From the IMG/VR virus record IMGVR_UViG_3300017760_000012, positions 1 to 43,666 of that record: a DNA stretch of 43,666 nucleotides; one strand, written 5' to 3'. Below, one piece after another: positions 8,787-39,084 of the stretch (its first letter is position 1; every line of letters begins with the position of its first letter). The notes under the pieces were generated by a model. It had not been told where the DNA came from and made no database searches. It was given only the letters and a program-made list of their open reading frames with translations. The position numbers were made by a program, and so were the translations under genes. Source of the stretch: a virus.

Positions 8787-8794
8787 TATAAATA
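8787..8794 (+). promoter_or_regulatory. T4-type late promoter box TATAAATA
   Basis: An exact match to the T4 late promoter -10 box, 25 nt before the ATG at 8820. A GGAG ribosome site lies between them. It is placed to drive the long head-protein-like cluster that follows. Confidence 0.75.
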
Positions 8795-8819: not shown

Positions 8820-10208
8820 ATGAAGAAGTTCATACATAGTTTTAAAGATGGATTTACTGAAATTAAAGAAGGCGTTGCCTTAGATAAAAATGAGCTACAG
8901 AAACCAAATAGTAATACTGGTGAAGCTAGAATAGATATTCTTAGAAAGCTTATTAAAAATCGTGATCCACTTCAATTAAAAAAAGGCGGTACAGCAATTG
9001 TAACCGATATTGAAGACGCTCTCCAAAAATTAAACGCATTCGAGCAAGCACCATCAAACATTTCATTTGTTTTTGGCGATAAGATGATTCCATTATCTCA
9101 ACTTAAAAAGTCAGAGGTATTTGGTGGAGGAGTTTCTGGGGCAGGGTCTGGTACTAAAGATACTGCTAGGAATGAATCCCATCAAGCTGTAATGTGCCAA
9201 GCAATGCTTGACCATGGGTTACAGGCTGAAGAATTTTTTACTCATGATATTCTTAAAGCAGCATACGGAAAAGTAAAAGTAGATGTCGATCTAAAAACTA
9301 TACTTTCCTCGCCAGATGCTTGGGTATCATCATCATACAACATTGCAAAAATGCTAGTTAAGGAAGGTTATATTAATAAAAGTATGACATTCCATAGAGG
9401 CGATGCTAAGATGATTAAAATATATGCACTTAAAAATCAAGCATATAAGAATAATGGATTTAAACCTTTAAAGGACGATAAATGGAACCCAGGCGATATG
9501 TGGGCGTTATCAACAGATTTTAACGTTGATAAAGAATTACCAACATCATCAGTTGGAGCTTTAAATAAAGCAATATTAAAACATTTTAATGATAGAAGAT
9601 TAGTTGGTATATCACTTAAAGGTCCAATGTTAAAGTTCCCTACACCATTAAAAGAATATAATAACGAATATCCACCTGACACAGATAACCATAAACTAAA
9701 AAAGGTTGCCTTAGAATCCAACAGAGGAAACTTTTGGTCATCAAAGAGTGCAACTATTGAGTACGATACAGGTGCATTAAACCTTAAGGATAACGCTAAT
9801 GGTGAAGCAGTAAAGGCTGAAATCAAAGGCAGTAAAGCAAGAGGCGGTGGATTATCATGGGGTGTTATTCAAGAATTTATAAAAAGAGAAACTGGTAAAA
9901 TAATTCCTGATCATGCTAAGGGTGTTAAAAAAATAGCACAGAAGATTAAAAAGGGTGATAAAAGATCTATTAAAATATTCTATACAATGTTTAAACACTT
10001 TTATCCAAACGTTACTGATAAAGAATTTTATGCAGAATTAGATCAAAAAGATTGGTTCTGGGTATCTGCTAAACTTGGTTCATTATACGTATGTTACTAT
10101 ATTGATACTAACACTGGAAGAAAAGCTAATGCCGTTGTAACGCAATTTGTAAATTACGCTGGATCTGCAACACTAGATTCAAGTACATACGTTAAATTAG
10201 GAAAATAG
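8820..10208 (+). CDS. Tagged hypothetical late protein, candidate internal head protein (462 aa)
   Basis: First gene of the late cluster. The N-terminus MKKFIHSFKDGFTEIKEG holds the SFK tag seen in the following proteins and an I-K-E/G site that fits the T4 prohead protease consensus (L/I-x-E). The rest is soluble and basic, with segments such as KDDKWNPGDMWALSTDF and AEIKGSKARGGGLSWG. I do not recognise an enzymatic family. Length and position suggest a large virion protein. GGAG lies upstream of the start. The next gene begins 1 nt after its stop. Confidence 0.75.
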   Translation: MKKFIHSFKDGFTEIKEGVALDKNELQKPNSNTGEARIDILRKLIKNRDPLQLKKGGTAIVTDIEDALQKLNAFEQAPSNISFVFGDKMIPLSQLKKSEVFGGGVSGAGSGTKDTARNESHQAVMCQAMLDHGLQAEEFFTHDILKAAYGKVKVDVDLKTILSSPDAWVSSSYNIAKMLVKEGYINKSMTFHRGDAKMIKIYALKNQAYKNNGFKPLKDDKWNPGDMWALSTDFNVDKELPTSSVGALNKAILKHFNDRRLVGISLKGPMLKFPTPLKEYNNEYPPDTDNHKLKKVALESNRGNFWSSKSATIEYDTGALNLKDNANGEAVKAEIKGSKARGGGLSWGVIQEFIKRETGKIIPDHAKGVKKIAQKIKKGDKRSIKIFYTMFKHFYPNVTDKEFYAELDQKDWFWVSAKLGSLYVCYYIDTNTGRKANAVVTQFVNYAGSATLDSSTYVKLGK

Positions 10209-10209
10209 A

Positions 10210-11451
10210 ATGAAATCATTTAAACAAAACTTATCCGAAGCCGCAGGTAAGAACACTCATATGACACATATTGAGGATCTTATTTTAGACGGTGGAGTTA
10301 AGGGAGCACGCCAAGCAATCCTTGCCCTAAGATCACTAAGGGATATGTTAAGCGGTAGCGCTAAATCAGCTGTAGACGTTACTGTTAAATGGGACGGTGC
10401 TCCCGCCGTATTTGCTGGAATTGATCCAGGAGATGGCCAGTTCTTTGTTGCTAAAAAAGGTATATTTAATGCAAATCCTAAAGTATATAAATCACATGCT
10501 GATATTGATGCTGATACTTCAGGTGATTTATCTACAAAATTAAAATTAGCCTATGACACTTTCAAAGATCTTGGAATAACTAATGTTATACAAGGTGATT
10601 TTATGTTTGATAAAGGCGATTTAAAAACAGAAAATATTGGTGGCGTAAAACATATAACGTTCCATCCAAATACAATTGTATATGCAGTACCTGTTGGTAG
10701 TCAACTTGCTAAAGATATTACATCTGCAAAAGTTGGAGTAGTATGGCATACGGTTTATACCGGTGCTACATTTGAAACAATGTCAGCTGAGTTTGGAAAG
10801 GAAATAGTACCTAAACTAAAGCCATCAAAAAATGTTTGGATGGTCGATGCAACACTTCCTGATATGTCAGGTACAGCAACATTTACAGCGAAGGAAACTG
10901 AACAAGTAACTTCTCATTTATCTCAAGCAGGTAAAACATTTAAACAAATATCAGGTTCTACATTAAAAGAAATAGAATCTAATAAGGAATTAAACCTTGT
11001 GATTAATACATTTAATAACACAAAGGTAAGAGCTAACGAAAGAATTAAAGATACTAAAAGACATGTAGCAGAATTAATTGTTTGGGTTAATAATAGATAC
11101 CAAAAAGAAATTGATAAAAGATCATCTCAAAAAGGTAAAGACGCTCAAATTAATAAAAGAGATGAATTATTAAAGTTTTTTAGTAAATCTAACCAAAAAA
11201 ACTTAGAAAAAGTGTTTAATTTACAGAATAATGTGGTGGATGCAAAATTAATTATTATAAATAAACTAAATGGTCTTAACAATATAGGAACGTTCCTTAA
11301 GACTAAAACCGGATTTAAAGCAACCAACCCAGAAGGTTTTGTTGCAATAGATCGTATGGAAGGTGGCGCGGTCAAGTTGGTTGACAGATTAGAATTTTCA
11401 ACCAATAACTTTGACCCAAATATTATAAAAGGCTGGCAGAATCCAGGCTAA
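10210..11451 (+). CDS. Nucleotidyltransferase/ligase-like protein with head tag
   Basis: The 413-aa protein starts MKSFKQNLSEAAGKN, a tag with an L-S-E/A cleavage-type site. It carries the ordered motifs of covalent nucleotidyltransferases (DNA/RNA ligases, capping enzymes). K60-W-D-G-A-P is motif I with the candidate AMP-accepting lysine. VIQGDFMFD is like motif III, PEGFVAID is like motif IV (EG), and AVKLVDR is like motif V (KL). The tail end (FDPNIIKGWQNPG) is unremarkable. It may join or adenylylate nucleic acid. If the tag acts in head targeting it would be injected with the DNA, which is inference. It is separated from its upstream neighbour by 1 nt. Confidence 0.75.
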   Translation: MKSFKQNLSEAAGKNTHMTHIEDLILDGGVKGARQAILALRSLRDMLSGSAKSAVDVTVKWDGAPAVFAGIDPGDGQFFVAKKGIFNANPKVYKSHADIDADTSGDLSTKLKLAYDTFKDLGITNVIQGDFMFDKGDLKTENIGGVKHITFHPNTIVYAVPVGSQLAKDITSAKVGVVWHTVYTGATFETMSAEFGKEIVPKLKPSKNVWMVDATLPDMSGTATFTAKETEQVTSHLSQAGKTFKQISGSTLKEIESNKELNLVINTFNNTKVRANERIKDTKRHVAELIVWVNNRYQKEIDKRSSQKGKDAQINKRDELLKFFSKSNQKNLEKVFNLQNNVVDAKLIIINKLNGLNNIGTFLKTKTGFKATNPEGFVAIDRMEGGAVKLVDRLEFSTNNFDPNIIKGWQNPG

Positions 11452-11472
11452 TGGGATACTTACCGAGGAAAT

Positions 11473-11859
11473 ATGGAAACTTTTAAAGAGTTCACATCAA
11501 AAAACGAAGCTTTGTCTATTGCTACTCGTAATAAGATGAAAGCTGCAGCTCGAAAAAACAAAGCTAAGATTATGCTTGGTAAAAAGAAAGCTGCCAAAAA
11601 ACTAGCCTCCCCTGAACAGCTTAAGAAACGAGCTGAAAAACAAGCCAAAAACCTAATAATTAAAAAGATTTTAAAGAACAAAACTAAAGCTGATTTAGGA
11701 TTTGCTCAAAGGGCTTCACTTGAAAAACAAGTAGCCAAAAAACAAGGTGCAATTAAAAAGATTGCTAAAAAACTGTTTCCTTCTGTTAAACAAGCAGATA
11801 GAGATAAGTTAAAAAAACAAAAAGCTGAACAATCAGTATTAGATAGAATGGGGAAGTGA
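11473..11859 (+). CDS. Lysine-rich basic protein with head tag
   Basis: This 128-aa protein is extremely rich in Lys and Ala (KKAAKKLASPEQLKKRAEKQ), like histone H1 tails or T4 internal proteins that sit with packaged DNA. It starts METFKEFTSKNEALS. The tag is clear, but the site (K-N-E/A) departs from L/I-x-E. GAGGAAAT precedes the ATG. It could condense DNA inside the head. No enzymatic motif. It overlaps the next gene by 4 nt. Confidence 0.75.
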   Translation: METFKEFTSKNEALSIATRNKMKAAARKNKAKIMLGKKKAAKKLASPEQLKKRAEKQAKNLIIKKILKNKTKADLGFAQRASLEKQVAKKQGAIKKIAKKLFPSVKQADRDKLKKQKAEQSVLDRMGK

Positions 11860-12812
11860 TGGAGATTAAGTCGTTTAAAAGTTATTTAGTAGAAGATACA
11901 AAGGATATTACCTTTGTGTTTGGTAGGTTTAATCCACCAACTACTGGACATGAATTACTATTTGATAAATTAAAGAAAGTATCAAAGGGTTCATATAGAA
12001 TTTACGCATCTCAATCGCAAGATGCAAATAAAAATCCATTTGATTTTAAAACAAAAGTTAAGATATTAAGAAAGATGTTTCCTAAACATGCACGAAGTGT
12101 TATGGCAGATAAGGGAATACGAACAGCTATGGACGTAGCAGTATCGTTATACGATCAAGGTTACACTAAAGTTTCTATGGTTGCAGGAGATGATCGAGTT
12201 AAAGAATTTGAAATACTGTTAAATAAATATAACGGCGTTGATGCAAGACATGGATTCTATCAATTTGAAGGTGGAATAAAAGTTATTTCAGCTGGACAAA
12301 GAGATCCAGATTCAGATGATGTATCTGGAATGTCAGCTTCTAAAATGAGAAAAGCAGCTAAGGACAACGATCTTAGTTCATTTTCTAAAGGTGTTCCATC
12401 AAGCTATAAGGATGTACAAGGCCTATTTAATATGTTACGAAAGGCTATGGGATTGAAAGAATCTAATAATTTTAGACAACATATTCAATTAGATCCAGTG
12501 TCAGAAACAAGAGAAGAATATATTGACGGAACTTTATTTGAGGTAGGAGATACAGTAACTGTAAAAGAAACAAATGAACAAGGTAGTATTAAAATGCTTG
12601 GTTCTAACTATGTTACTATTCAACTTGAATCTGGAACTAAAAGAGTATGGCTTGACGATATTGCACTAGCTGAAAACTGTGGCGGAGTTGGAGAAGACAA
12701 AGTTACACAAAAGTACGCAAAGGTAACACCAGGCGAAGAAGTTCCTAAGAAGAAAAAGAAGAAAAACGGAAAAAAACAATTATCATTTAGGGATTTTAAA
12801 GATGAACTTTAA
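11856..12812 (+). CDS. Cytidylyltransferase-like (NMNAT-type) nucleotidyltransferase with head tag
   Basis: Starts M-M-E-I-K-S-F-K-S-Y-L-V-E-D (ATG 11856 or 11859), with an L-V-E/D site. The catalytic domain follows at once: TFVFGRFNPPTTGHELL carries the nucleotidyltransferase (T/H)xGH motif, and SGMSASKMRKA (about residues 167-177) is the ISxTxxR-like motif. These enzymes transfer a nucleotidyl group to a phosphorylated substrate, for example NMN to NAD. The substrate here cannot be read. A small SH3/KOW-like segment (LFEVGDTVTVKETNEQGSIK) and a Lys-rich tail follow. The C-terminus LSFRDFKDEL echoes the tag. It overlaps both neighbours. Confidence 0.8.
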   Translation: MMEIKSFKSYLVEDTKDITFVFGRFNPPTTGHELLFDKLKKVSKGSYRIYASQSQDANKNPFDFKTKVKILRKMFPKHARSVMADKGIRTAMDVAVSLYDQGYTKVSMVAGDDRVKEFEILLNKYNGVDARHGFYQFEGGIKVISAGQRDPDSDDVSGMSASKMRKAAKDNDLSSFSKGVPSSYKDVQGLFNMLRKAMGLKESNNFRQHIQLDPVSETREEYIDGTLFEVGDTVTVKETNEQGSIKMLGSNYVTIQLESGTKRVWLDDIALAENCGGVGEDKVTQKYAKVTPGEEVPKKKKKKNGKKQLSFRDFKDEL

Positions 12813-13098
12813 ACAATTAAGATCTAAATTATTAGAAGGAACGATGGAATTCGGTATATTTTCTGATAACCCAGATGAGGCTGAAAAGATTGCACAGCAA
12901 CTTGTAATGTTCATGAGAAAAAGCAAGGATATAGTAGTAGGAGACGATAAATCACAAGCCTATTTAGATACTATTGCAGGGTTTATTTACGATGATGAAC
13001 TGTTAGACGATTTACATCCAGAAACTGGAAAGGTTGGTAAGGATGCAAACGATATTGTCGTAGCAAGATTAAAACAATTAGGAGTTAATATACACTAA
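12802..13098 (+). CDS. Tagged hypothetical late protein (98 aa)
   Basis: N-terminus MNFKQLRSKLLEGTMEFG: an F-K tag with an L-L-E/G site matching the prohead-protease consensus. The rest is acidic and helical (NPDEAEKIAQQLVMFMRKSK). It overlaps the nucleotidyltransferase by 11 nt and the next ATG by 1 nt. No family recognised. Confidence 0.7.
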   Translation: MNFKQLRSKLLEGTMEFGIFSDNPDEAEKIAQQLVMFMRKSKDIVVGDDKSQAYLDTIAGFIYDDELLDDLHPETGKVGKDANDIVVARLKQLGVNIH

Positions 13099-13123
13099 TG
13101 AAAACATTTAAAGAATTAAGAGA
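13097..13123 (+). repeat. 27-nt direct repeat encoding the head tag (copy 1)
   Basis: Identical to 13840-13866, the start of another tagged gene. It encodes M-K-T-F-K-E-L-R. A shorter match (18 nt) begins at 14363. This suggests duplication or exchange of the tag-coding DNA. Confidence 0.85.
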
Positions 13124-13370
13124 TAAGCTAGTAAAGGAAATATCTCCAGCTTTAGCTACTAGATACAGAGATAAAGCTTTAAAGGATAGACAAAAATTAC
13201 CAGGAGCTTCTGATTTAGGAATTTCTAGTAGAGATGCTCGTAAAGTAAAAAACAGAATTAAAGGTAGTAATAGAGCTTTAGATAGAGCTTATGGAAGAGG
13301 CGCTAGTTCAAGGCCTAAAGGTCAAAACGCAAAATACTACGATAGAGACTTTAAAGGAACAAAAAAATAA
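13098..13370 (+). CDS. Tagged basic hypothetical protein (90 aa)
   Basis: Begins MKTFKELRDKLVKEIS. The 5' coding DNA (13097-13123) is identical over 27 nt to the start of the gene at 13841. The rest is very basic and Gly/Arg/Ser-rich (RDARKVKNRIKGSNRALDRA), suggesting nucleic-acid contact. The family is not recognised. It starts in a TAATG overlap. Confidence 0.7.
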   Translation: MKTFKELRDKLVKEISPALATRYRDKALKDRQKLPGASDLGISSRDARKVKNRIKGSNRALDRAYGRGASSRPKGQNAKYYDRDFKGTKK

Positions 13371-13371
13371 A

Positions 13372-13839
13372 ATGAAAGATTTTAAAGCATTTTTTAATGA
13401 AGCTGAAGATAAAGATATTGGCGATCGTAAAGGAAGTCAACCTAAAGCTTATTATGCTAAGGATGCTAAAGGCGATGAAATGGCTAAGTCTACTAAGCAA
13501 AAGAGAGCAGCTCATTTTAAGAAAAAATCTAGTAAGCCAGCTCCAGGCGATAAATCTGCAGAAACAAAACCTTCACAGCATACTAAGAAATTTAAAGATA
13601 TGTTTGGTGAAGCTTCAGCACCTGACAAAGCACTTAAAGATAAAGCAGATAAGTCTGGAATGCCATTAGGTATATTAAGGCAAGTATTTAATAGAGGAGT
13701 TGCAGCTTGGAAAACAGGACACAGACCTGGAACAACTGCAGTACAATGGGGATTAGCAAGAGTTAATTCATTCGTAACAAAATCCAGTGGAACCTGGGGT
13801 AAAGCCGATGCCGATTTGGCTAAAAAAGTAAGAGGATAA
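13372..13839 (+). CDS. Tagged protein with DUF5824-like domain and a second internal tag
   Basis: The start is ATG 13372, directly after the previous stop, which begins the tag MKDFKAFFNEAED (site F-N-E/A). A lysine-rich linker leads to a second tag-like stretch, KKFKDMFGEASAP (about residues 76-88), with a G-E/A site. The C-terminal domain LGILRQVFNRGVAAWKTGHR and the following RPGTTAVQWGLARVNSF are a conserved phage domain that I recall as DUF5824, function unknown. The two tags suggest two processing events that would release the C-terminal domain; this is inference. Length 155 aa. Confidence 0.75.
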   Translation: MKDFKAFFNEAEDKDIGDRKGSQPKAYYAKDAKGDEMAKSTKQKRAAHFKKKSSKPAPGDKSAETKPSQHTKKFKDMFGEASAPDKALKDKADKSGMPLGILRQVFNRGVAAWKTGHRPGTTAVQWGLARVNSFVTKSSGTWGKADADLAKKVRG

Positions 13840-13866
13840 AATGAAAACATTTAAAGAATTAAGAGA
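13840..13866 (+). repeat. 27-nt direct repeat encoding the head tag (copy 2)
   Basis: Identical to 13097-13123. It lies at the start of the gene at 13841. Confidence 0.85.
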
Positions 13867-14128
13867 AAATAGTCAACTCAATGAAAAGGGGTGGGCACCT
13901 GAATCTCCTGAAGCATTTGCTAAAACTATGAAAGATAAAAAACTCCAAAAGGATATCGCAAAGTTTTTTGATACCGACAGACATGAATTTATGTCAGTAA
14001 AGGACGCAGAAAAGAAATTTCCTTACATGATAAAATACATGAAGAATTCTGAGTTTTTAAAAATAAACAAACAAAAGCTAACTGATAAAAATTTAATGAC
14101 GGTTGCTATAACAATGTCAGACGATTAA
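13841..14128 (+). CDS. Tagged hypothetical late protein (95 aa)
   Basis: Begins MKTFKELRENSQLNEKGWAP, with an L-N-E/K site. The remaining residues are charged and helical (FDTDRHEFMSVKDAEKKFPY). No recognised motif. Intergenic gaps of 1 nt on both sides support co-translation. Confidence 0.7.
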   Translation: MKTFKELRENSQLNEKGWAPESPEAFAKTMKDKKLQKDIAKFFDTDRHEFMSVKDAEKKFPYMIKYMKNSEFLKINKQKLTDKNLMTVAITMSDD

Positions 14129-14129
14129 T

Positions 14130-14366
14130 ATGAAAACTTTTAAGGAACAATCTAATCTTGACGAAGCACCATTAGTGATGTCCGATATGGATATGATTGA
14201 TACGTTGTTTAATAAAATAAAAAATGATATGCTGAAAGCCAAAAGAAAAAACCAAGGTGAAAAAAACTGGCCAGCGTTACAACAACTAGCAAAAATGGCT
14301 GGATATGGTATTACTAAAGCTGGCCAAGCTAAAGATAAATCATTTAGGTACGATCTTAAAAAATGA
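14130..14366 (+). CDS. Tagged hypothetical late protein (78 aa)
   Basis: Begins MKTFKEQSNLDEAPLVMSD, with an L-D-E/A site that fits the protease consensus well. After that come acidic then basic helices (MDMIDTLFNKIKNDMLKAKR). No known family. It overlaps the next ATG by 4 nt (ATGA). Confidence 0.7.
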   Translation: MKTFKEQSNLDEAPLVMSDMDMIDTLFNKIKNDMLKAKRKNQGEKNWPALQQLAKMAGYGITKAGQAKDKSFRYDLKK

Positions 14367-14593
14367 AAACATTTAAAGAGCTTAGAGAAAAGAAAAGCGA
14401 ATCCTGGGAAGCAGGATATAAAAGAAGAGTCGTAAAAACAACTAAGCCTGAGCACAAAGAAAAAGGTTATGAGTGGAGAATTAAAGGTAAAGAAAAAGAC
14501 CATTTATCTATTAAGTTATATAAGACTAAACCATCACAATCAGAATTTAATAAGCAAATGAAAAGAGTTGCAGGTCATGAGTTCGGTGGATAG
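14363..14593 (+). CDS. Tagged basic hypothetical protein (76 aa)
   Basis: Begins MKTFKELREKKSESWEAG, with L-R-E/K. The body is basic and beta-like (YKRRVVKTTKPEHKEKGYEW). No known family. It overlaps the upstream gene by 4 nt and the downstream kinase gene by 17 nt. Confidence 0.65.
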   Translation: MKTFKELREKKSESWEAGYKRRVVKTTKPEHKEKGYEWRIKGKEKDHLSIKLYKTKPSQSEFNKQMKRVAGHEFGG

Positions 14594-15254
14594 TTTTAAA
14601 GAACATTATAATATTATGGAAGGTATTAATGATCCTTCTATTTTTAAAGCAGTATTCCTAGCAGGTGGTCCAGGTTCTGGAAAATCATTTGTTGTAGGTA
14701 AAACATCATTAGCATCATTAGGGTTTAAAATTATAAACTCAGATACTAATTATGAAAATTCTCTTAAAAAGGCTGGGCTTACAATGGACGCAGAAGATAT
14801 ATTTTCTGCACAAGGGCAAGCATTAAGAGACAAAGCTAAGGCTATTACTGGTAAACAGTTAACCCTAGCTTTAAAGGGAAGATTAGGAGTAGTTATAGAT
14901 GGAACTGGTAAAGATTACGCTAAAATAAAAGATAATGTTGATCAGTTTAGAGCTGTAGGATATGCTGTACATATGATATTTGTTAATACTGATTTAGAAA
15001 CTGCATTAGCACGAAATAAAAGCAGAGATAGAGTATTACCAGATGAGCATGTAGAAAAAATGTGGAAATCAGTACAGAAAAACATTGGTAAATTCCAAGG
15101 GCTTTTTCGTAATAGAATGACAGTAATAGATAACTCAACAGATGCAGATATTAACACATCTACTTTAGAAGCTTATAAGGATATACAACAGTGGGCTAAG
15201 AAACCACCAGAAAATTCATTAGCAGTTAAGTGGATAAAAGGACAAAAAAAATGA
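14577..15254 (+). CDS. P-loop kinase (zeta-toxin/polynucleotide-kinase-like) with head tag
   Basis: The start is ATG 14577. A GTG at 14586 would give an N-terminus beginning with D-S-F-K-E-H, closer to the usual tag register. The tag VDSFKEHYNIMEG has an I-M-E/G site. Walker A is GGPGSGKS at residues 30-37, followed by KIINSDTNYENSLKKAG (nucleotide-binding Asp) and LGVVIDGTGKDYAKI (Walker B-like). ARNKSRDRVLP is a lid-like arginine segment. These features match AAA_33/zeta-toxin-type kinases that phosphorylate small molecules or nucleic-acid ends. The substrate is unknown. It overlaps the next gene by 4 nt. Confidence 0.8.
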   Translation: MSSVDSFKEHYNIMEGINDPSIFKAVFLAGGPGSGKSFVVGKTSLASLGFKIINSDTNYENSLKKAGLTMDAEDIFSAQGQALRDKAKAITGKQLTLALKGRLGVVIDGTGKDYAKIKDNVDQFRAVGYAVHMIFVNTDLETALARNKSRDRVLPDEHVEKMWKSVQKNIGKFQGLFRNRMTVIDNSTDADINTSTLEAYKDIQQWAKKPPENSLAVKWIKGQKK

Positions 15255-15703
15255 ATAAAGAAGAAGTAAAAATAAGAGATAAAATTGTATCATCATTTAA
15301 CAGTAAATGGAAATACAGAAAGGATAAAACTCAGTACGGTATGGCTGATGCATGGAAAATTATATATTCTGAAGATGCAGAAGGTAAATTCGTAGGAGAC
15401 TGTGAAGATTATTCTTTATCTATTCTTTATAGATTATGTGGTGAAAGCCATTTAAAAATGTGGTGGATGTTATTAACACACCAAGCCGGTATATGTTGTG
15501 TAGGACCAAGCAAATGGAAAATGTCCCATGCTGTTTTAAGATATAAAGGTGAATACGTTGATAATTGGACTAAGAAATTTGGTGGTAAAGCCGCTATCGA
15601 AAAAAATCATACCTTTCATATTTTTTACGGATATGGCTGGGCATATTTTACTGCTATTAAAATGATTATAAGTAAAGTAGTAAGAACTATTAAAGGAAAC
15701 TAA
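15251..15703 (+). CDS. Transglutaminase-like cysteine peptidase family protein
   Basis: ATG 15251 lies in an ATGA overlap with the kinase. The product, 150 aa, has a Cys-His-Asp arrangement typical of the bacterial transglutaminase-like/papain-like fold. C51 is in VGDCEDYSLSILYRL, H93 is in MSHAVLRY and D104 is in EYVDNW. A hydrophobic C-terminal stretch (FYGYGWAYFTAIKMII) may contact membrane. It lacks the head tag of its neighbours. The reaction could be proteolysis, amidase or cross-linking; the sequence does not decide between them. Confidence 0.7.
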   Translation: MNKEEVKIRDKIVSSFNSKWKYRKDKTQYGMADAWKIIYSEDAEGKFVGDCEDYSLSILYRLCGESHLKMWWMLLTHQAGICCVGPSKWKMSHAVLRYKGEYVDNWTKKFGGKAAIEKNHTFHIFYGYGWAYFTAIKMIISKVVRTIKGN

Positions 15704-15704
15704 A

Positions 15705-16454
15705 ATGAAACTATTTAAAGCAATTCGCGAAAACTACGCACAAGACCTAGATCTTGCCCAGAAAAATGTAGCAAGACTTTCTAAGAAAGAAACAGGTCAA
15801 GATCAAAAAGATTATCAAGCAGTAGCTCGAGCTCTTAATCAAGGCAACCTTGGTGCAGTTAAAAAGGTAATCAAAAGTATTTCAACAAAAGAAATTCAAG
15901 CTGATATATTAAATATACTTGTAGGTTATAACGACTTAATTGCTAAAATGTATCCTAAAGCAGTAGATAAAAACGGTAATCTTAAATCTGGCCTGAATGT
16001 AGATAAGCTGATTAAAGAAGAAACAGTTGAAGAAGGTAAGAAAATTCAAGACATAGTTCGTAAACACAAAAGAGAACTTCAGAAAGCACAAAAAAGTGGT
16101 AACCTAGAGCTATCTAAGAAAGCAGAAGACGAACTCAGTAATTGGGCAAGTTCCAGTGGTGAGATTCGTGGAGACGATGAAGACGAATTCATTGACTGGT
16201 TAGATAGTAACCTTGACGATTTAGTTAAAGGTAAAATTAAAGAAGACGTTAATGAAGCTAAACCACCGAAGATGAAAAGTTTATCAATATACGGTTCTGA
16301 AATTTCTGGTTTAAAGCGTTCTAATGGAAGTAAACTGAGTACATATACCGCTAAACCTGTAATAATTAAAGGTAAGTTAGGATTTAAAGTTACTGATGAT
16401 AGTGGTTCATTTGAAACACTTGACCTTAAAAAATTCGCGAAGATGTACGGATAA
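15705..16454 (+). CDS. Tagged hypothetical late protein (249 aa)
   Basis: Begins MKLFKAIRENYAQDLD, with an I-R-E/N site. Further [L/I]-x-E-like positions occur in the middle (KLIKEETVEEGKK), so it may be processed more than once. Central helices (VRKHKRELQKAQKSGNLELS) are charged. The C-terminal 60 residues look beta-rich (KPVIIKGKLGFKVTDDSGSF). No recognised family. It overlaps the next gene by 1 nt. Confidence 0.7.
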   Translation: MKLFKAIRENYAQDLDLAQKNVARLSKKETGQDQKDYQAVARALNQGNLGAVKKVIKSISTKEIQADILNILVGYNDLIAKMYPKAVDKNGNLKSGLNVDKLIKEETVEEGKKIQDIVRKHKRELQKAQKSGNLELSKKAEDELSNWASSSGEIRGDDEDEFIDWLDSNLDDLVKGKIKEDVNEAKPPKMKSLSIYGSEISGLKRSNGSKLSTYTAKPVIIKGKLGFKVTDDSGSFETLDLKKFAKMYG

Positions 16455-16822
16455 TGCATAAATTTTTAGAGCACATCGATGAAAGATTTGGACTATACGA
16501 AGGTAGGAATGTTCCATTAGAGCAACCTATGATCGAGGCTCCTGAGCCAGCACTTAATAAACCAAGCAGAAGCTCAGGCCCAAAGAAATATGTTGTATAT
16601 GTTAAGAATCCAAAAACTGGAAACGTAAAGAAAATTAATTTTGGCGACGAAAAGGGAGGTTTAACCTCTAAAATAAACGATAGAGATGCTGCAAGAAACT
16701 TTGCATCTCGTCATAACTGCGATACTAAAACGGATAAACTATCACCAGGATACTGGTCATGTAGATTACCAAAGTATGCAAAGGACTTGGGGCTTAAAGG
16801 TGGTGGAGACTATTTTTGGTAA
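16454..16822 (+). CDS. Tagged protein with conserved 'ARNFASRHNC..YWSCR' domain
   Basis: The N-terminus MHKFLEHIDERFGLYEGRN has an L-Y-E/G site. From about residue 44 the sequence KKYVVYVKNPKTGNVKKINF leads into FASRHNCDTKTDK and YWSCRLPKYA. This small domain with two conserved Cys recurs in many T4-like phages, often in virion-associated proteins (from memory). Its function is unknown. The 3' end overlaps the next gene by about 20 nt. Confidence 0.75.
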   Translation: MHKFLEHIDERFGLYEGRNVPLEQPMIEAPEPALNKPSRSSGPKKYVVYVKNPKTGNVKKINFGDEKGGLTSKINDRDAARNFASRHNCDTKTDKLSPGYWSCRLPKYAKDLGLKGGGDYFW

Positions 16823-17090
16823 TCCATATATCGATAGTGTATTAAACAGTACTACTATCGAAAGATCGTTCTTCTTAGATAAAGAAGATGCAGAATATGT
16901 TTGGCACTCAGATAAAGAGTTAAGAGAAGTAGAAGTATTAAACGGTGAAGGATGGCAATTTCAATACGAAAATTGTTTACCTTGGCTGATAGAAAAGGGA
17001 ATGGTATTTTATATACCATTAGGAGAAAGACACAGACTAATAAAAGGTAAAACTACCTTACATTGTAGGATTATAAAACATGCCAAATAG
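16803..17090 (+). CDS. Small cupin-like protein (about 95 aa)
   Basis: The likely start is a GTG at 16803 (or 16800) after TAAAGG, giving METIFGNPYIDSVLNSTTIE. The body has a cupin pattern: VWHSDKELREVEVLNGEGWQ is the first motif with His, and GMVFYIPLGERHRL is the second motif with His. Cupins are small beta-barrels that often bind a metal. No substrate can be inferred. No in-frame ATG gives a better start without overlapping most of the previous gene. Confidence 0.6.
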   Translation: METIFGNPYIDSVLNSTTIERSFFLDKEDAEYVWHSDKELREVEVLNGEGWQFQYENCLPWLIEKGMVFYIPLGERHRLIKGKTTLHCRIIKHAK

Positions 17091-17388
17091 CAACACCGCA
17101 TCTCAACAAAGAGCTGAAGCTGCTTTAAGACTAGATAGAATAGAAGAAAAAATTGATAGAATGTCTGAAGCAATTATTGCACTTGCTAGAGCTGAAGAAA
17201 AGATTCAAACACTTACGTCATTTTCTAAACAGCAATCAGAGCAGATTGTTTTACTTATAAATAGAATAGACAAAGTGGAAAGCATCGTAGTAAACAATGC
17301 AAATACAATTAATATAATTAATAAAATATTTTGGATAGTAATGGCTGCAGCTGCAACCACTATTACCGGAATGTTAATAATGCAATAA
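17080..17388 (+). CDS. Coiled-coil protein with C-terminal membrane anchor (102 aa)
   Basis: The N-terminal and central parts form a heptad-like coiled coil (LDRIEEKIDRMSEAIIALAR). A C-terminal hydrophobic helix follows (IFWIVMAAAATTITGMLIM). This resembles XhlA-type phage membrane proteins that cooperate with holins, but it could also be a virion or injection protein given its place in the head cluster. No head tag is present. It overlaps the cupin gene by 11 nt. Confidence 0.65.
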   Translation: MPNSNTASQQRAEAALRLDRIEEKIDRMSEAIIALARAEEKIQTLTSFSKQQSEQIVLLINRIDKVESIVVNNANTINIINKIFWIVMAAAATTITGMLIMQ

Positions 17389-17401
17389 AATAGGAGAAAA
17401 T

Positions 17402-18655
17402 ATGAAATTGCAAGATAAAGAAACTCTAAGCGTTGCAGCAGCAGTCCAGAACGTATTAGAAGGTAAAAAGCCTGCAGTTAAGGAAGAACCAAAGTATCCA
17501 CATGCGATGTATCATCCTGAAACTGGCAAAGAAGAAACTGCGAAAAACGAAGAAGAGCATAAAGCTTTATCTGCTAAGGGTTATACACATGAGAAGAACG
17601 AATCTCCTGAAGAGCCAAAAGCACGAGGCGAAAAAGATTTTAAAGCTAAACATGTAGTTAAGAAATCTGGTGCAAAATCTGATGGTTCAGTAGTAAAAGA
17701 AGATGTTGACGCACTTCATGAAGAAGCTATTGAAATGGATAAAGAACTTTCTGAAGGTTTTTCTCCATCTCAAGTTAAAGCTGCTATCAAAATTGCTTCT
17801 AAAATGGGCGGTAATATGACAGGTGCTGTTAAAAAAATCGAAGCCATGAAAAAAGGTCTTTCTGATGAAAAGGAAGTTAAGGATGCATTACGCTTAGCTA
17901 ACGAAGGAACAATGTCAGAAGAAGAAAAATCTGCAAAGCAAAAGAAGTACCAAGCTTTCTTTGATAAAGCACTTAAAAAGTTTGGTGTTAAATCACCTGC
18001 TGAACTCGAAGGCGACAAGAAAAAAGAATTCTTCGATTATATCGATAAGAATTATGAAGCTGACGATGAAGAAGATGAAATCGTATCAGAAGGTAAGGTT
18101 ACAGTTGATGTTGACTGGATTGGCGATACCAAAGTAACTAAAGATGCTGAAAAGAAATTTAAAGTAAAAATTAAAGTAGATACCAGAAAAGGTACTGCTG
18201 ATGTAACTGGTGATCATAAGCAAGTTGTTAAAATGTTAATGGATCCAGACGTATACGGATTAGATAAAGGTGACATTGAAGACATGTTCCCAGGCCTTAT
18301 GAAAGGTAAATTAGAATCTGTCCAAGAAGATGTTAGAGATATGAAAAACTATGATGATAGAAATCGTAGAGGCTTCGAAGCTAGAGCAAGTATTGAAGTA
18401 GTTAAAGGTAATAGCTCTAATAAATTTGATGATGACTTTGGATTTAATAAAGCTGAAATGACAGTTATGGATAAAGTAATTAGTAAAATTAAGAAAATGC
18501 ATGTAACTAGCTTTGATGGTGGTTCATCTGGCCCTGCATCTTTAGAATTTTACGGTGATGAAGCTGCTTTAACTAAGTTTCTTGCTGATAGAAATGTACA
18601 AAAGATTGTTAAAAAATATAAGGCTAAGGTATACGGACCGACTTTAAACAAATAA
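17402..18655 (+). CDS. Large acidic head-cluster protein with multiple protease-type sites (417 aa)
   Basis: The N-terminus runs MKLQDKETLSVAAAVQNVLE/G. The protein contains a motif of the type HAMYHPETGKEETAKNEEEH, then GYTHEKNE, which I recall from marine phage virion proteins. Several E/G junctions fit prohead-protease cleavage: KELSE/GFSPS, LANE/GTM and EIVSE/GKV. It could be a polyprotein of internal head peptides. The C-terminal 100 residues look folded (ASIEVVKGNSSNKFDDDFGF). TAGGAGAAAAT gives a strong ribosome site. It is the last gene before the late promoter at 18661. Confidence 0.75.
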   Translation: MKLQDKETLSVAAAVQNVLEGKKPAVKEEPKYPHAMYHPETGKEETAKNEEEHKALSAKGYTHEKNESPEEPKARGEKDFKAKHVVKKSGAKSDGSVVKEDVDALHEEAIEMDKELSEGFSPSQVKAAIKIASKMGGNMTGAVKKIEAMKKGLSDEKEVKDALRLANEGTMSEEEKSAKQKKYQAFFDKALKKFGVKSPAELEGDKKKEFFDYIDKNYEADDEEDEIVSEGKVTVDVDWIGDTKVTKDAEKKFKVKIKVDTRKGTADVTGDHKQVVKMLMDPDVYGLDKGDIEDMFPGLMKGKLESVQEDVRDMKNYDDRNRRGFEARASIEVVKGNSSNKFDDDFGFNKAEMTVMDKVISKIKKMHVTSFDGGSSGPASLEFYGDEAALTKFLADRNVQKIVKKYKAKVYGPTLNK

Positions 18656-18660
18656 TTGAT

Positions 18661-18668
18661 TATAAATA
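18661..18668 (+). promoter_or_regulatory. T4-type late promoter box TATAAATA
   Basis: An exact TATAAATA. In T4 the start site is about 6 nt after this box, which would be 18674, the A of an ATGATG pair. The mRNA would then have almost no leader. Confidence 0.75.
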
Positions 18669-18676
18669 ACTATATG

Positions 18677-19045
18677 ATGAAATTATTTGATAAACTAACT
18701 AGTAGGAATTTTAAGCTATTTGCTGCTAACCATTATAATAACCCTGAATGTATTTCGGTGGATGAATTTATAGAGGATGTAAGTAGATTTAAATACTTAA
18801 AAAGATTATTAAAGAGGTATGAGCAATCAGGTGATTTACAGGAGAGATTAATCCTAAATCACCTGATTGTAATATACAATGTGTTTGGCATTGAAGCTGC
18901 TGATAGAATGGTTTGGTTCAAAGTGAACGAAGCACACTATCCAGCATTGAAAACCTTTTTAGTATTTTTGCATTTTATAAAAGAAAACGATAAGGTAGAA
19001 ATACCTATGGACACTAATATAGTGGAAAGGTTAAGAAATATATGA
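18677..19045 (+). CDS. Conserved phage protein (DUF7207-like), possibly leaderless
   Basis: The start is ATG 18677 (or the adjacent ATG 18674), placed by the late promoter box just upstream. An in-frame TTG at 18656 lies before the promoter and is unlikely. The product, 122 aa, has FKYLKRLLKRYEQSGDLQER and then NHLIVIYNVFG, a pattern I associate with a conserved T4-like phage family (DUF7207). The function is unknown. The coding region contains a 15-bp perfect inverted repeat. It has no head tag cleavage site. Confidence 0.75.
   Translation: MKLFDKLTSRNFKLFAANHYNNPECISVDEFIEDVSRFKYLKRLLKRYEQSGDLQERLILNHLIVIYNVFGIEAADRMVWFKVNEAHYPALKTFLVFLHFIKENDKVEIPMDTNIVERLRNI
18824..18869 (+). repeat. 15-bp perfect inverted repeat inside a coding region
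   Basis: The left arm at 18824-18838 (CAATCAGGTGATTTA) is the exact reverse complement of the right arm at 18855-18869. The arms are separated by a 16-nt loop that contains the palindrome GATTAATC. RNA folded here would have a long, stable stem. It lies inside the gene at 18677 and encodes EQSGDLQERLILNHLI. Confidence 0.85.
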
Positions 19046-19656
19046 GAACTGTATTAAATAAACGAAACGAAATAAACGAAGGTTTATTGTCTCGTGGTGC
19101 AGATATGGTTTATGCTATTAGATTTCTTAAACTTTTAGTAACGCCATTTAAAAAGACAGAAGCTTTTAAACAAGGCCTTGTTGACGAAAATGGATATAGA
19201 ACAGAAATACCAATTGAAACTAATGATCAAAGATCAGCATTTACAATATTTCATAGATTGGTATTTAATGTTAAGAAATTAATGGCTAAGGTTCCATTTG
19301 GTAAAACCAGATTAGCATCTTATGCCGCAGCTTTATTCCTTGTTAAAGAACATACTGGAATATCAAGTGAAAGATTAAAAAGTATATTAATAGAATCTGG
19401 AGAAACGGATTTAGATACTATTAATGAAAGTGCTTGGTTTGAGAATAATAATAAACTAAATAAAGGCACTTATATATTAGTTAACGATATAGCATCACCA
19501 GATACTGCTGAGTTTATCGCTAAAAAGAACACAAAGGTAATAGTATCAGAAGTGACAGAACCAGCTGATACACTATTCAATATAAATATATACAAGGTTA
19601 AACACTTAAATACCAAACAATTTGTATATGTAACAAATATGGATATAAAAAGATGA
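19042..19656 (+). CDS. Tagged conserved phage hypothetical protein (204 aa)
   Basis: N-terminus MRTVLNKRNEINEGLLSRG, with an I-N-E/G site like those of the upstream cluster. The centre contains FHRLVFNVKKLMAKVPFGKT and RLASYAAALFLVKE, a pattern I recall from other T4-like marine phages as an uncharacterised conserved protein. No catalytic motif is evident. It overlaps the previous gene and the next by 4 nt each. Confidence 0.7.
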   Translation: MRTVLNKRNEINEGLLSRGADMVYAIRFLKLLVTPFKKTEAFKQGLVDENGYRTEIPIETNDQRSAFTIFHRLVFNVKKLMAKVPFGKTRLASYAAALFLVKEHTGISSERLKSILIESGETDLDTINESAWFENNNKLNKGTYILVNDIASPDTAEFIAKKNTKVIVSEVTEPADTLFNINIYKVKHLNTKQFVYVTNMDIKR

Positions 19657-19874
19657 AATATAAAAGTTTTAAACAATGGGAAGATGCTGCTGCTAATTCC
19701 GTAGCAAGTGGCGGAGTCGATATGGCTCCAAACGCTATGGGTAAAAAAGCACTTCTAAAAAGAAAGAAAAAATCTGAAGGTAAATACGACGGCCGTACCA
19801 GAGAAGGTAGAAAATTCGTAGAAAGAATGTTAGCAAAGAGGTTGGCCAGAGAAGCTAAAAAAATAGAGAAATAA
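19653..19874 (+). CDS. Small basic tagged protein (73 aa)
   Basis: Begins MKYKSFKQWEDAAANSVASG. The SFK part of the tag is present, but there is no clear L/I-x-E site. GGVDMAPNAMGKKALLKRKK and DGRTREGRKFVERM follow, giving a basic helical protein. The 'GGVDMAP' and 'DGRTRE' segments recur in marine T4-like phages (memory only). Probably a virion or DNA-associated protein; the function is unknown. Confidence 0.7.
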   Translation: MKYKSFKQWEDAAANSVASGGVDMAPNAMGKKALLKRKKKSEGKYDGRTREGRKFVERMLAKRLAREAKKIEK

Positions 19875-32787: not shown

Positions 32788-34212
32788 ATGATTAATTTTA
32801 ATGGCTACATCACGGAAGAGATAGAAAAACGAGGAGTCACGGAAGTTGCTATATTGGCACTAGATGCTGATGAAGGAACTGCCGCTGACATAATCTCTAA
32901 TGTTTGTGAGTTTAACGATGTTAAATGCACACTTATACACACCAACAAAGCATTCCTAGCGGATAGCGATGTAGAACTAAGGAAGGTTGAGATACATAAT
33001 ATTGATGGTGAAGGTAAACTTATATCTTTAGACATTGATAATACTATCATCTTTGTTAGGGCTGGTGCTGTAGGAACCTTAGTAGGGCAGGCATTAGTAT
33101 CATCATTACAGACAGCTGGGTTCTTTTTAATAAATGATTTAGAATCTATGTTATTATGTAATAATAAAATGGCAACAAGTATTGCACTACAAAGAAACAA
33201 TGTGCAGATACCTAAAACAGCCATTTTAAACAATGAAGAATCTATTGATTTAGCTGTAAAAAGCGTTGGTGGTAAATATCCATTAATCATAAAAACACTT
33301 ACAGGAACACAAGGTATTGGTGTATCTAAGGTAGAATCATATGATTCGTTAATCTCAGTATGCCAATCTTTATGGAAGTTTGAAGCACAGTTGTTATTAC
33401 AAGAATATTTAGAAATGAAATCTGATATTAGAACACTTGTAATAAATGGCCATATTATGGCATCAGCTGAAAGAAAACAAACTAAAAAATCTAAAGACTT
33501 TAGAAAAAATGTTCATAGGGGTGCGGAAGCAATTCCATATAAACTATCTGAAGAGGAAGTAGAAGTAATACTAAATGCTGCTCGAGCAACTGGCGCATAT
33601 TATTGTGGAGTTGATCATACAGTAGTTAATGGTGAAATATATGTTGTTGAAGTAAACGGTTCGCCTGGTGCTAAATCACACTTTATGGGTTATGATTTAG
33701 AAACTAATAAACCTACTAAACCTTTAACTGCTGAGAAAGCAATCGATTTAATGATTAAACATATATTAGAACCATACAATAGAAAAACTTGGTTTAGACA
33801 AGAAGCTGGATATATAGAAACAGTTCATATTGAAGGTTATAAACTACCGATTAGAGCTAAATTTGATACAGGTAATGGAACAGACGCTTCCATGTTACAT
33901 GTTGATAAAGTAGAAGTAAAGAATAATAAAGTTTATTGGGAAAAGAATGGTCAAAAATTCGTTAACAAATACCTTGGTAAATCAGTAGGTGTTAGAGGTC
34001 CTAATAATAAAATTGAAAGAGCTAAGGTAGAACTTACAGTTAAATTTAATGGTAGATCATATAATGCATTTATTGGTTTAACTGTAGAAGACTCAGCAAG
34101 TGAAATGTTAGTTAATAGAGAATTAATGACACTTATGAGAATAGCAATTAATCCAAGCTTAAGGTTTGGTATTAGTGATTGGACAAGAAAGAACGATGAA
34201 ACTGACGTTTAA
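32788..34212 (+). CDS. RimK-like ATP-grasp ligase fused to RimB-like aspartic protease domain
   Basis: 474 aa. An N-terminal region leads to an ATP-grasp domain (about 120-320): YPLIIKTLTGTQGIGVSKVE is the nucleotide-binding loop, LLLQEYLEMKSDIRTLVING is the central strand, and YVVEVNGSPGAKSHFMG is the Mg-binding end. It resembles RimK, which ligates glutamate to ribosomal protein S6. From about 335 a second domain, YKLPIRAKFDTGNGTDAS (D360-T-G), matches the retropepsin-like PF05618 'ATP-dependent zinc protease' family found beside RimK. A possible tag, MINFNGYITEEIEK with I-T-E/E, is at the N-terminus. It overlaps the next small gene by 17 nt. Confidence 0.85.
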   Translation: MINFNGYITEEIEKRGVTEVAILALDADEGTAADIISNVCEFNDVKCTLIHTNKAFLADSDVELRKVEIHNIDGEGKLISLDIDNTIIFVRAGAVGTLVGQALVSSLQTAGFFLINDLESMLLCNNKMATSIALQRNNVQIPKTAILNNEESIDLAVKSVGGKYPLIIKTLTGTQGIGVSKVESYDSLISVCQSLWKFEAQLLLQEYLEMKSDIRTLVINGHIMASAERKQTKKSKDFRKNVHRGAEAIPYKLSEEEVEVILNAARATGAYYCGVDHTVVNGEIYVVEVNGSPGAKSHFMGYDLETNKPTKPLTAEKAIDLMIKHILEPYNRKTWFRQEAGYIETVHIEGYKLPIRAKFDTGNGTDASMLHVDKVEVKNNKVYWEKNGQKFVNKYLGKSVGVRGPNNKIERAKVELTVKFNGRSYNAFIGLTVEDSASEMLVNRELMTLMRIAINPSLRFGISDWTRKNDETDV

Positions 34213-38345: not shown

Positions 38346-38612
38346 ATGGACATAGCTGGATTAATTATAGAATTCGGATTTGAAACAGTAGCGTTAGTAG
38401 GACTTGGTTATTTTGTGTTTTATGTATGGCAATTTGTTTCTAATGATTTAGAGCCAAAGCTTGAGGAAATGCATTTTGGTTTAATACGTTTAATAGACCA
38501 AGTTAGAATGCTTGATCAAGATATGATTAGATTACAAGAAAAGGTTAAAGTAGTACTAGAGTATAGAGAAAGACAGAAATTATTAGATATGGAAAAGAAA
38601 AATGAAGATTAG
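38346..38612 (+). CDS. Small membrane protein with coiled coil, second of a pair (88 aa)
   Basis: Begins MDIAGLIIEFGFETVALVGL with a hydrophobic helix continuing to YFVFYVWQF, then a helical coil (LIRLIDQVRMLDQDMIRLQE). It parallels the previous protein. It overlaps the csgF-like gene by 11 nt, which ties the pair to that operon. Confidence 0.65.
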   Translation: MDIAGLIIEFGFETVALVGLGYFVFYVWQFVSNDLEPKLEEMHFGLIRLIDQVRMLDQDMIRLQEKVKVVLEYRERQKLLDMEKKNED

Positions 38613-39084
38613 AAATATAGCATTAATAGGAATGGTAATATCATTTCCAGTATTTGCTGATGAAATTAAATTTGGATTTAAAAATCCATCGTTCAGTGGA
38701 GCTGGAACAGGAGCACATTATTTAACAATTGAGAACCAAGAACATTCTCGTAAAAAAGCAATTGAAGATGCTTTAGAGGCTGCAAGAAAAGCAGCAGAAA
38801 GAGAAGCTGAAAACTCTACAATGGCCAAGTTTATACGAAATTTGGAGAGTAGAATATACTCTCAGATGTCAAAACAATTAGTTGAATCTATGTTTAGTAA
38901 TGATGGATCGGTGAGATTTGGTTCATTTACATTGGAAGGTAATGTTGTTACATACGAAGTTTTAACAAATGAGGATGGATCTGAATATATTAAAATGACT
39001 ATTGTAGATTCAGATGGAACTACAACCGTTATTGAAATACCAGTAGGAACTGGTAATTTTGGGCAAGATCCGGATGTCGGTTAA
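38602..39084 (+). CDS. csgF: CsgF-like curli assembly protein
   Basis: 160 aa. Signal peptide MKIRNIALIGMVISFPVFA, then a mature N-terminus DEIKFGFKNPSFSGAGTGAH matching CsgF (T-F-x-F-x-N-P-x-F-G-G). In E. coli this N-terminal segment inserts into the CsgG pore and couples curlin secretion to nucleation. The middle is an alanine- and glutamate-rich helix (ALEAARKAAEREAENS), and the C-terminal half is beta-like (VTYEVLTNEDGSEYIKMTIV). It overlaps the csgG-like gene by 11 nt. The CsgF N-terminal match is the strongest evidence. Confidence 0.85.
   Translation: MKIRNIALIGMVISFPVFADEIKFGFKNPSFSGAGTGAHYLTIENQEHSRKKAIEDALEAARKAAEREAENSTMAKFIRNLESRIYSQMSKQLVESMFSNDGSVRFGSFTLEGNVVTYEVLTNEDGSEYIKMTIVDSDGTTTVIEIPVGTGNFGQDPDVG

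Follow-up and report, generated by a model that had tools for sequence, protein, structure and literature searches.

The subject of this analysis is an array of genes at positions 8820-19874 of the virus record IMGVR_UViG_3300017760_000012, the whole of which (43,666 nt; 43.7 kb) constitutes the window, and in which about 14 proteins begin with a short sequence resembling the capsid-targeting sequence of the internal head proteins (IPs) of bacteriophage T4. This array is considered to be a cargo locus, representing a large and enzyme-rich variant of the T4 internal-protein system whose products are packaged through their N-terminal tag, and a probability of roughly 0.85 is attached to this reading, the confidence in the functions of single proteins being lower. 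Since about 14 proteins bear a head tag of the T4 type, the phage probably delivers enzymes in finished form, along with its DNA, to the bacterium that it infects.

According to the proposed mechanism, a late promoter would direct the expression of small proteins and enzymes provided with a T4-type capsid-targeting sequence. This tag of 9-20 residues would consist of an aromatic anchor followed by [L/I]-x-E and would bind the cargo to the prohead core, where a gp21-type protease would cleave after the E. The freed proteins would then remain in the head alongside the DNA, and be ejected into the host at infection. Packaging and cleavage after the E are well-supported predictions; in addition, we infer injection into the host and the roles of the enzymes there. 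An earlier note on this DNA, based on its letters alone, had proposed head packaging of the tagged proteins, a proposal which is supported by the T4 spacing of the tag, its clustering, the protease and the presence of homologues in virions.

Distribution, spacing and conservation of the tag

The features concerned are as follows (a slash indicates the predicted cleavage position; aa, amino acids).

8787..8794, + strand: late promoter box TATAAATA, T4-type, 25 nt ahead of the first tagged gene
8820..10208, + strand: 462 aa, tag MKKFIHSFKDGFTEIKE/G, start MKKFIH; relatives in cyanophages; residues 1-17 with a predicted local distance difference test score (pLDDT) <50 in the model
10210..11451, + strand: 413 aa, DUF6267, putative ligase-like nucleotidyltransferase, tag MKSFKQNLSE/A; PF19782, 345 bits
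11473..11859, + strand: 128 aa, very basic, start METFKEFTSKNE/A with an off-consensus site; 24 homologues
11859..12812, + strand: 317 aa, NMNAT/cytidylyltransferase-like nucleotidyltransferase (NTase), tag MEIKSFKSYLVE/D; phrog_395, 8.7e-73; homologues in virions
12802..13098, + strand: 98 aa, tag MNFKQLRSKLLE/G
13098..13370, + strand: 90 aa, MKTFKELRDKLVKE/I; no counterpart in the close relative G001
13372..13839, + strand: 155 aa, tag MKDFKAFFNE/A; body corresponding to the C-terminal part of the NTase of relatives
13841..14128, + strand: 95 aa, MKTFKELRENSQLNE/K
14130..14366, + strand: 78 aa, MKTFKEQSNLDE/A
14363..14593, + strand: 76 aa, MKTFKELRE/K
14577..15254, + strand: 225 aa, P-loop kinase (AAA_33 / Zeta-toxin / polynucleotide kinase (PNK)-like), tag MSSVDSFKEHYNIME/G
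15705..16454, + strand: 249 aa, MKLFKAIRE/NYAQDLDL
16454..16822, + strand: 122 aa, MHKFLEHIDE/R or GLYE/G (alternative sites)
17402..18655, + strand: 417 aa, without F-K start; NVLE/G, the E being residue 20
19042..19656, + strand: 204 aa, EINE/G, no F; phrog_2086 match, shared with T4 gp61.1
19653..19874, + strand: 73 aa, MKYKSFKQWEDAAANS, FK start without LxE site
32788..34212, + strand: 474 aa, RimK-like ATP-grasp enzyme outside the array, tag MINFNGYITE/E in exact T4 register; PF08443, 115.8 bits

The start M-x(1-5)-F-[KQ] is found in 12 of the 20 open reading frames (ORFs) of the array versus 3 of the 60 in the remainder of the window (Fisher p=6.7e-7), shuffling of the array N-termini yielding a mean of 1.2 and a maximum of 5 (2000 shuffles). 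The ORFs and N-termini agree with those quoted in the earlier note, and its figure of 14 is reached when two further starts, MKKFIH (8820) and MHKFLE (16454), are added by eye to the 12 matching this pattern. Taken alone, [LI]xE within residues 5-20 is weakly enriched (11/20 array ORFs versus 15/58 other plus-strand ORFs; p=0.019), and the contrast is clearer for [LI]xE[AG] (7/20 versus 2/58; p=7e-4). The eight cleavage sites quoted in that note all exist, except that EINE/G belongs to 19042, an ORF without an FK start. Six ORFs of the array lack an FK-type start (15251, 16800, 17080, 17402, 18674 and 19042) and two FK-type proteins (11473 and 19653) contain no [LIVFM]xE within residues 5-24, and the array is therefore mostly, not wholly, tagged. 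Among homologues, the start M-[KE]-[ST]-F-K-E is present in 11 of 14 distinct N-termini shown for 11473, and V[LV]EG in 13 of 14 shown for 17402.

The record G001, a 136.8-kb IMG/VR sequence, carries almost the same array and a RimK that is 99% identical to that of the window, with exact occurrence of five of the seven window 40-mers tested. The FK start is present in 9 of 19 ORFs at its array end versus 7 of 147 elsewhere (p=3e-6), so that a motif search for the spread of the tag, as had been suggested, finds it concentrated in the array. The 13098 gene is absent from G001 and therefore probably reflects a recent gain or loss.

The T4 capsid-targeting sequence is described as the first 10 residues, of which 4 and 7 serve targeting and 8 and 10 processing (PMC9026906). 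The spacing F-x2-[Y/F]-[L/I]-x-E of the array tag reproduces these four positions, the likeness with IPI, IPII and IPIII comprising a short propeptide at the N-terminus, in which residues 4 and 7 are aromatic, residue 8 is L/I and residue 10 is E, together with a protease of the gp21 type. This was formulated as the pattern M-x(1-5)-[FY]-x2-[FYHNWLQI]-[LIVMF]-x-E, in which the tag is allowed to shift. In T4 it retrieves 3 of 275 called ORFs, namely two IP genes and 61.1; one of the IP matches is annotated ipIII. The T4 ORF at 73591-73878 (IPI) also starts with MKTFKE. Five of the 79 ORFs of the window match, namely four array members and the RimK-like enzyme at 32788; the other tagged array proteins show a looser form of the spacing. 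When nine genomes are pooled, the pattern is matched by 17 of 157 ORFs in hand-set slots corresponding to the array and by 13 of the 1752 ORFs beyond these slots (p=7e-12), and across 80 related contigs 123 of 1404 ORFs do so (shuffles: mean 5.3, maximum 10), the same pattern being present at just 23 of 4900 internal methionines. The S-CREM2, S-SZBM1, S-SCSM1 and RimK loci were fetched only after the pattern had been written. Two earlier expressions were abandoned: a first loose one, which included alternative starts (window, 11 versus 6.3 shuffled; HTVC008M, 14 versus 20), and a second one merely about two- to fourfold above shuffles, which was replaced by the T4-spaced pattern.

The N-terminal stretch preceding DUF6267, NTase, kinase and RimK, being four unrelated families, is variable in length and sequence; nevertheless, 113 of 115 distinct N-termini contain [LIVMF]xE (shuffles: mean 56, maximum 70), and 93 of the 115 have F/Y/L/W exactly six residues before the E (mean 9, maximum 18). 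Within these 93, which were chosen for the residue at -6, F is found there in 77, L/I at -2 in 90 and Y/F at -3 in 81, the -3 position having been no selection criterion. The set of 115 comprises sequences whose core matches a fixed pattern within the first 90 residues (for RimK, the first 16 residues were taken); it does not contain the untagged cyanophage copies of DUF6267, among them that of S-PM2, nor the DUF6267 of Syn9, nor the NTases of S-SM1 and Syn9, in which the core lies at residue 85, and in a few rows the sole triplet lies very early (HTVC008M NTase, residues 4-6). In RimK the E occupies residue 10 in all 25 loci with a readable start, out of 27 fetched (L213-L239).

Array units 12802, 14130, 14363 and 15705 also occur as internal domains of longer proteins in relatives. 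When a distance of up to 4 residues from the domain is allowed (up to 8 in the case of 14363), an xE site with a hydrophobic residue, A or Y at -2 is kept at 17 of the 19 distinct internal junctions (shuffles: mean 5, maximum 12) and in 17 of 17 cases where the domain is N-terminal. The 14363 fusion proteins carry their own [FY]-[KQSTNRE] tag at the start in eight of nine distinct cases. In 43 distinct cases, the 13372 protein corresponds to the C-terminal portion of a longer protein, mostly an NTase; where it is encoded separately, it bears a tag of its own. This retention of the site suggests that fused cargo would also be cut at the junctions. In S-PM2 (AJ630128, 103025-104804) DUF6267 is present in two pieces, the second half being fused to the NTase and the product annotated only as cytitidyltransferase.

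Late promoter box, prohead protease and virion proteomes

The genes of the window resemble those of marine T4-like phages. The best full-length matches of its DUF6267 are in phage C48C1 (55%), Methylophilales phage Melnitz (49%) and Stenotrophomonas phage DLP6 (45%), those of cyanophages and HTVC008M being more distant. The array is flanked on one side by a UvsX/DnaB-type helicase pair and on the other by ribonucleotide reductase genes, and in Melnitz, HTVC008M, S-PM2, Syn9, S-SM1, S-SZBM1 and S-SCSM1 the helicase is likewise followed by a run of hypothetical genes; the equivalent run is preceded by an exonuclease in C48C1 and by gp55 in S-CREM2. The description of the array as a late cluster has to be qualified, given its position between the DnaB-type helicase and the ribonucleotide reductase genes, although it is preceded by a late-type promoter box.

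The sequence TATAAATA is the T4 late promoter. Counted over the whole window it is not enriched (11 versus 10.2 expected), and it is informative only upstream of the first array gene. The late box of S-PM2 is reported as NATAAATA, close to TATAAATA (PMC2984593). Among 35 homologues of the first array gene, 34 have this sequence at most 100 nt upstream, compared with 117 of the 1230 plus-strand ORFs on the same contigs; the only homologue without it (L085) is a partial match, and as the homologues are related, these are not 35 independent events. Intergenic TATAAATA boxes at 18661, 32775 and 38029 end 5-6 nt before called start codons, and late transcripts from them would therefore be nearly leaderless.

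The prohead protease, which the earlier note had expected in the rest of the genome, was not seen in the window fragment itself, and a gp21-type (S77) gene for it is present in the close relatives G001 and G002 and in five of five named relatives searched. The G001 gp21 protein starts with MKLISEYTDSNIECYTE/A (ECYTE/A) and its gp23 contains FQLNE/TAAN; read by eye, these sites look alike, and that of gp23 appears to be of the kind present in the tag.

Published virion mass spectrometry, an approach proposed in the earlier note, places tagged NMNAT-like homologues in four cyanophages. The putative citidylyltransferase T4-GC190 was detected in purified S-SM1 virions (PMC3037559), its copy SSM1_190 starting with MKKFSAFLNE/A; S-SZBM1_140 (MRFRQFIIE/A) is among the virion proteins of Table 1 in PMC9146016; S-SCSM1_91 (MKSFLQFLKE/A) is among those of PMC9602691 and its sequence record; and for S-CREM2, Table 3 of PMC10665884 contains ORF154, ORF6, ORF14, ORF13 and ORF136. 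Of the latter, ORF154 is NMNAT-like (MKNFSSFLTE/A), and the SAM hydrolase ORF6 (MKDFDSFLEE), the kinase ORF14 (MKRFDAFLTE), ORF13 (MKDLHSFLTE) and ORF136 (MQTFSMFFSE) are tagged as well. The NTases of these four phages are 35-42% identical to that of the window. The DUF6267 copies of S-SZBM1, S-SCSM1 and S-CREM2 bear no tag, and they are unlisted in those three proteomes. In S-PM2 the NTase, fused behind half of DUF6267, has no tag, and it was reported as not detected in virions (PMC3037559). In S-SCSM1 the virion flag is attached to 7 of 15 slot genes versus 1 of 146 other non-structural genes, and in S-SZBM1 3 of 12 slot genes appear in the virion table, one of them tagged. The examined text of the cyanophage proteome papers nowhere names a targeting signal, and their authors speculate that such proteins are either carried by the virion or carried over.

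An S-CREM2 Cas9-like nuclease annotated as a virion protein (ORF12; OR473000, 7704-10313) contains FASFMAE/A at residues 19-25, and a CRISPR-type nuclease may therefore be head cargo in that phage.

Weighing of alternative explanations

A number of observations weigh against the interpretation of the array as a cargo locus. Several array proteins have no clean cleavage-type site, and exact T4 spacing is limited to four array proteins under the broader pattern (10210, 11859, 13372 and 16454) and to three under a narrower one. The pattern was devised after the window and several relatives had been seen, and the shuffle controls ignore common descent of the sequences. HTVC008M gives no match to either the broader or the narrower pattern, S-PM2 gives none within its slot, and DLP6, S-SM1, Syn9 and T4, taken singly, are not above shuffles (79, 137, 114 and 75 of 1000, respectively, reach the count). 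The virion detections concern cyanophage homologues, not the window phage itself. Genome-wide in S-CREM2, the pattern is present in 4 of the 50 ORFs detected in virions and in 2 of the remaining 169 (p=0.025), which is a modest link (two of the 52 listed proteins were unmatched by the ORF caller), and the ORF12 motif occurs at residues 19-25 only. In S-SCSM1 only one of the seven flagged slot proteins is clearly tagged; as most of them have no recognizable tag, other routes into the virion exist, and ORF 44215-44535 of the same phage bears an exact tag, yet has no virion flag.

Among the alternatives, the one that survives best, while still improbable, is that the tagged proteins represent prohead scaffold or core components resembling gp67/gp68, which are degraded and lost rather than surviving as cargo. 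Several array proteins are indeed small and charged, and T4 gp22, gp67 and gp68 are described as core proteins cut by gp21 to short fragments (PMC5694885), so that this explanation may apply to some of the small array proteins. It does not account for the ligase-like, NMNAT-like, kinase and RimK enzymes, which keep conserved cores downstream of the site, nor for the detection of homologues of the NMNAT-like and kinase proteins in mature virions.

Slightly less probable again is that the shared start results from recent duplication of gene 5' ends, or from a translation-start preference, with no role in packaging. A 30-nt repeat covering start codon and tag is shared by three genes (13097, 13840 and 14362) at 87-97% identity, and the tag DNA itself may have been copied between genes. 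Against such an origin, the DNA upstream of the MKTFKE genes is dissimilar (4-8 of 20 positions identical), the other tags differ at DNA level, the site is conserved before unrelated cores and at fusion junctions, and tagged homologues are present in virions.

Least probable is that these are ordinary late or middle nucleotide-metabolism genes acting in the infected cell and contaminating virion preparations: the array genes do lie among replication genes, and the S-SCSM1 and S-CREM2 authors raise carry-over through high expression, a point that also tells against packaging, but detection is repeated in four phages, nrdA, nrdB and primase beside the slot are unlisted for S-CREM2 and unflagged in S-SCSM1, the S-SCSM1 flags are concentrated in the slot as given above, and the conserved site would be left unexplained.

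Nature of the predicted cargo and relation to known systems

Returning to the array as a cargo locus, the enzymes that the earlier note had seen in the tagged set match the profiles PF19782 (ligase-like protein), phrog_395 (NMNAT-like protein) and AAA_33 (kinase). By sequence, the 11859 protein is assigned as NMNAT/cytidylyltransferase-like (Pfam CTP_transf_like, 20.4 bits, slightly below the cut-off of 21), and the 14577 protein as a P-loop kinase (query 14568-15254: Pfam AAA_33, 45.8 bits; Zeta_toxin, 44.4 bits; phrog_505 polynucleotide kinase, 8.6e-9). In DUF6267 the motif K60-W-D-G63 (KWDGAP; KxDG) is invariant in 27 sequences. With its model (mean pLDDT 74; tag <50, as in the 8820 model), RNA ligases rank first among the VIA-align matches, a weak signal (Z <=6.6) interspersed with helical rows that are unrelated (Z 5.6-6.0), and Foldseek against the PDB returned no match at E<=0.001 for either DUF6267 or the 8820 protein; the model is no more than suggestive of a nucleic-acid ligase-like fold. 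A relation of the 8820 protein to PARP was not used, its rows being weak and absent among VIA-align rows with Z >=2. PADLOC on six proteins gave a single weak match, to the kinase. The C-terminal part of the RimK-like 32788 protein has a sub-threshold match to PF05618 (E 0.019), the RimB-type protease family, and the enzyme is a candidate injected ribosome-modifying enzyme.

Doubtful, though worth stating, is a joint claim that the PNK-like kinase, the RNA-ligase-like DUF6267, the NMNAT-like protein and RimK would form an injected kit for nucleic-acid repair and takeover, served by a cassette system of tag DNA. By analogy with T4 Alt, RimK would modify host proteins (ribosomal protein S6) from the first minute; any domain given tag DNA would become cargo; and fused cargo would be split in the prohead at conserved junctions by the same protease.

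Separately, positions 38602-42531 of the window encode CsgF (54.5 bits; cut-off 25.8) and CsgG (176.9 bits), followed by three proteins, one with a curlin-type repeat (40026-40766; 20.0 versus a cut-off of 20.7 bits), one with a FecR domain (40720-41829) and one with similar-looking GDN-type repeats and no Pfam match (41830-42531). Pelagimyophages and Melnitz are reported to possess csgF/G and to lack csgA/B (PMC9004378); the window, having csgF/G plus repeat proteins, may therefore hold a fuller phage curli set.

T4 packages three IPs and Alt, whereas the window encodes about 14 tagged proteins in one array plus one elsewhere, several of them enzymes, which agrees with the unusual size noticed earlier; unlike the T4 IPs, its domains exist in separate and fused forms with junction sites. 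The NMNAT-like protein is homologous to, and shares its tag type with, the virion NMNAT/cytidylyltransferase (T4-GC190) of cyanophages, in which kinases also occur, and the tagged array is longer than in S-CREM2, S-SZBM1, S-SCSM1 and S-SM1. The ejection proteins of the phiKZ-like phage SPN3US are likewise packaged with DNA in large number and cut after E by a prohead protease; several of their propeptides exceed 100 residues and only that of gp45 (20 residues) has T4 length (PMC5694885), and no such long propeptides are predicted in the window, where cleavage is predicted at residues 9-20. Polyvalent proteins, known from phages and conjugative elements, are also multidomain proteins thought to travel with DNA, each being one polypeptide of 2 to 15 domains (PMC5512222), in contrast to the short tagged units of the window, which are sometimes fused with protease-type junctions.

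In T4 itself, the uncharacterized gp61.1 (AF158101, 18966-19130) starts with MKTFKEFIKE/D in exact capsid-targeting spacing, and its gene lies between gp61 and gp41, a position like that of the array. The family phrog_2086 matches gp61.1 and window 19042 in different parts and is the only link between them; BLASTP found no homology of 19042 to T4 gp61.2, and 18674 gave no alignment with T4 61.4.

No recognized report of a capsid-targeting sequence in cyanophages or marine T4-like phages was found in the literature, supplements and subscription papers being outside the scope of that search. The tag offers a mechanism for the recurrent presence of NMNAT-like enzymes and kinases in cyanophage particles, and supplies a rule for predicting, from sequence, the cargo of common marine phages. 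For T4, the prediction is that gp61.1 belongs to the internal head proteins and is one of small size. The findings suggest that the delivery of enzymes together with DNA may be routine among marine T4-like phages.

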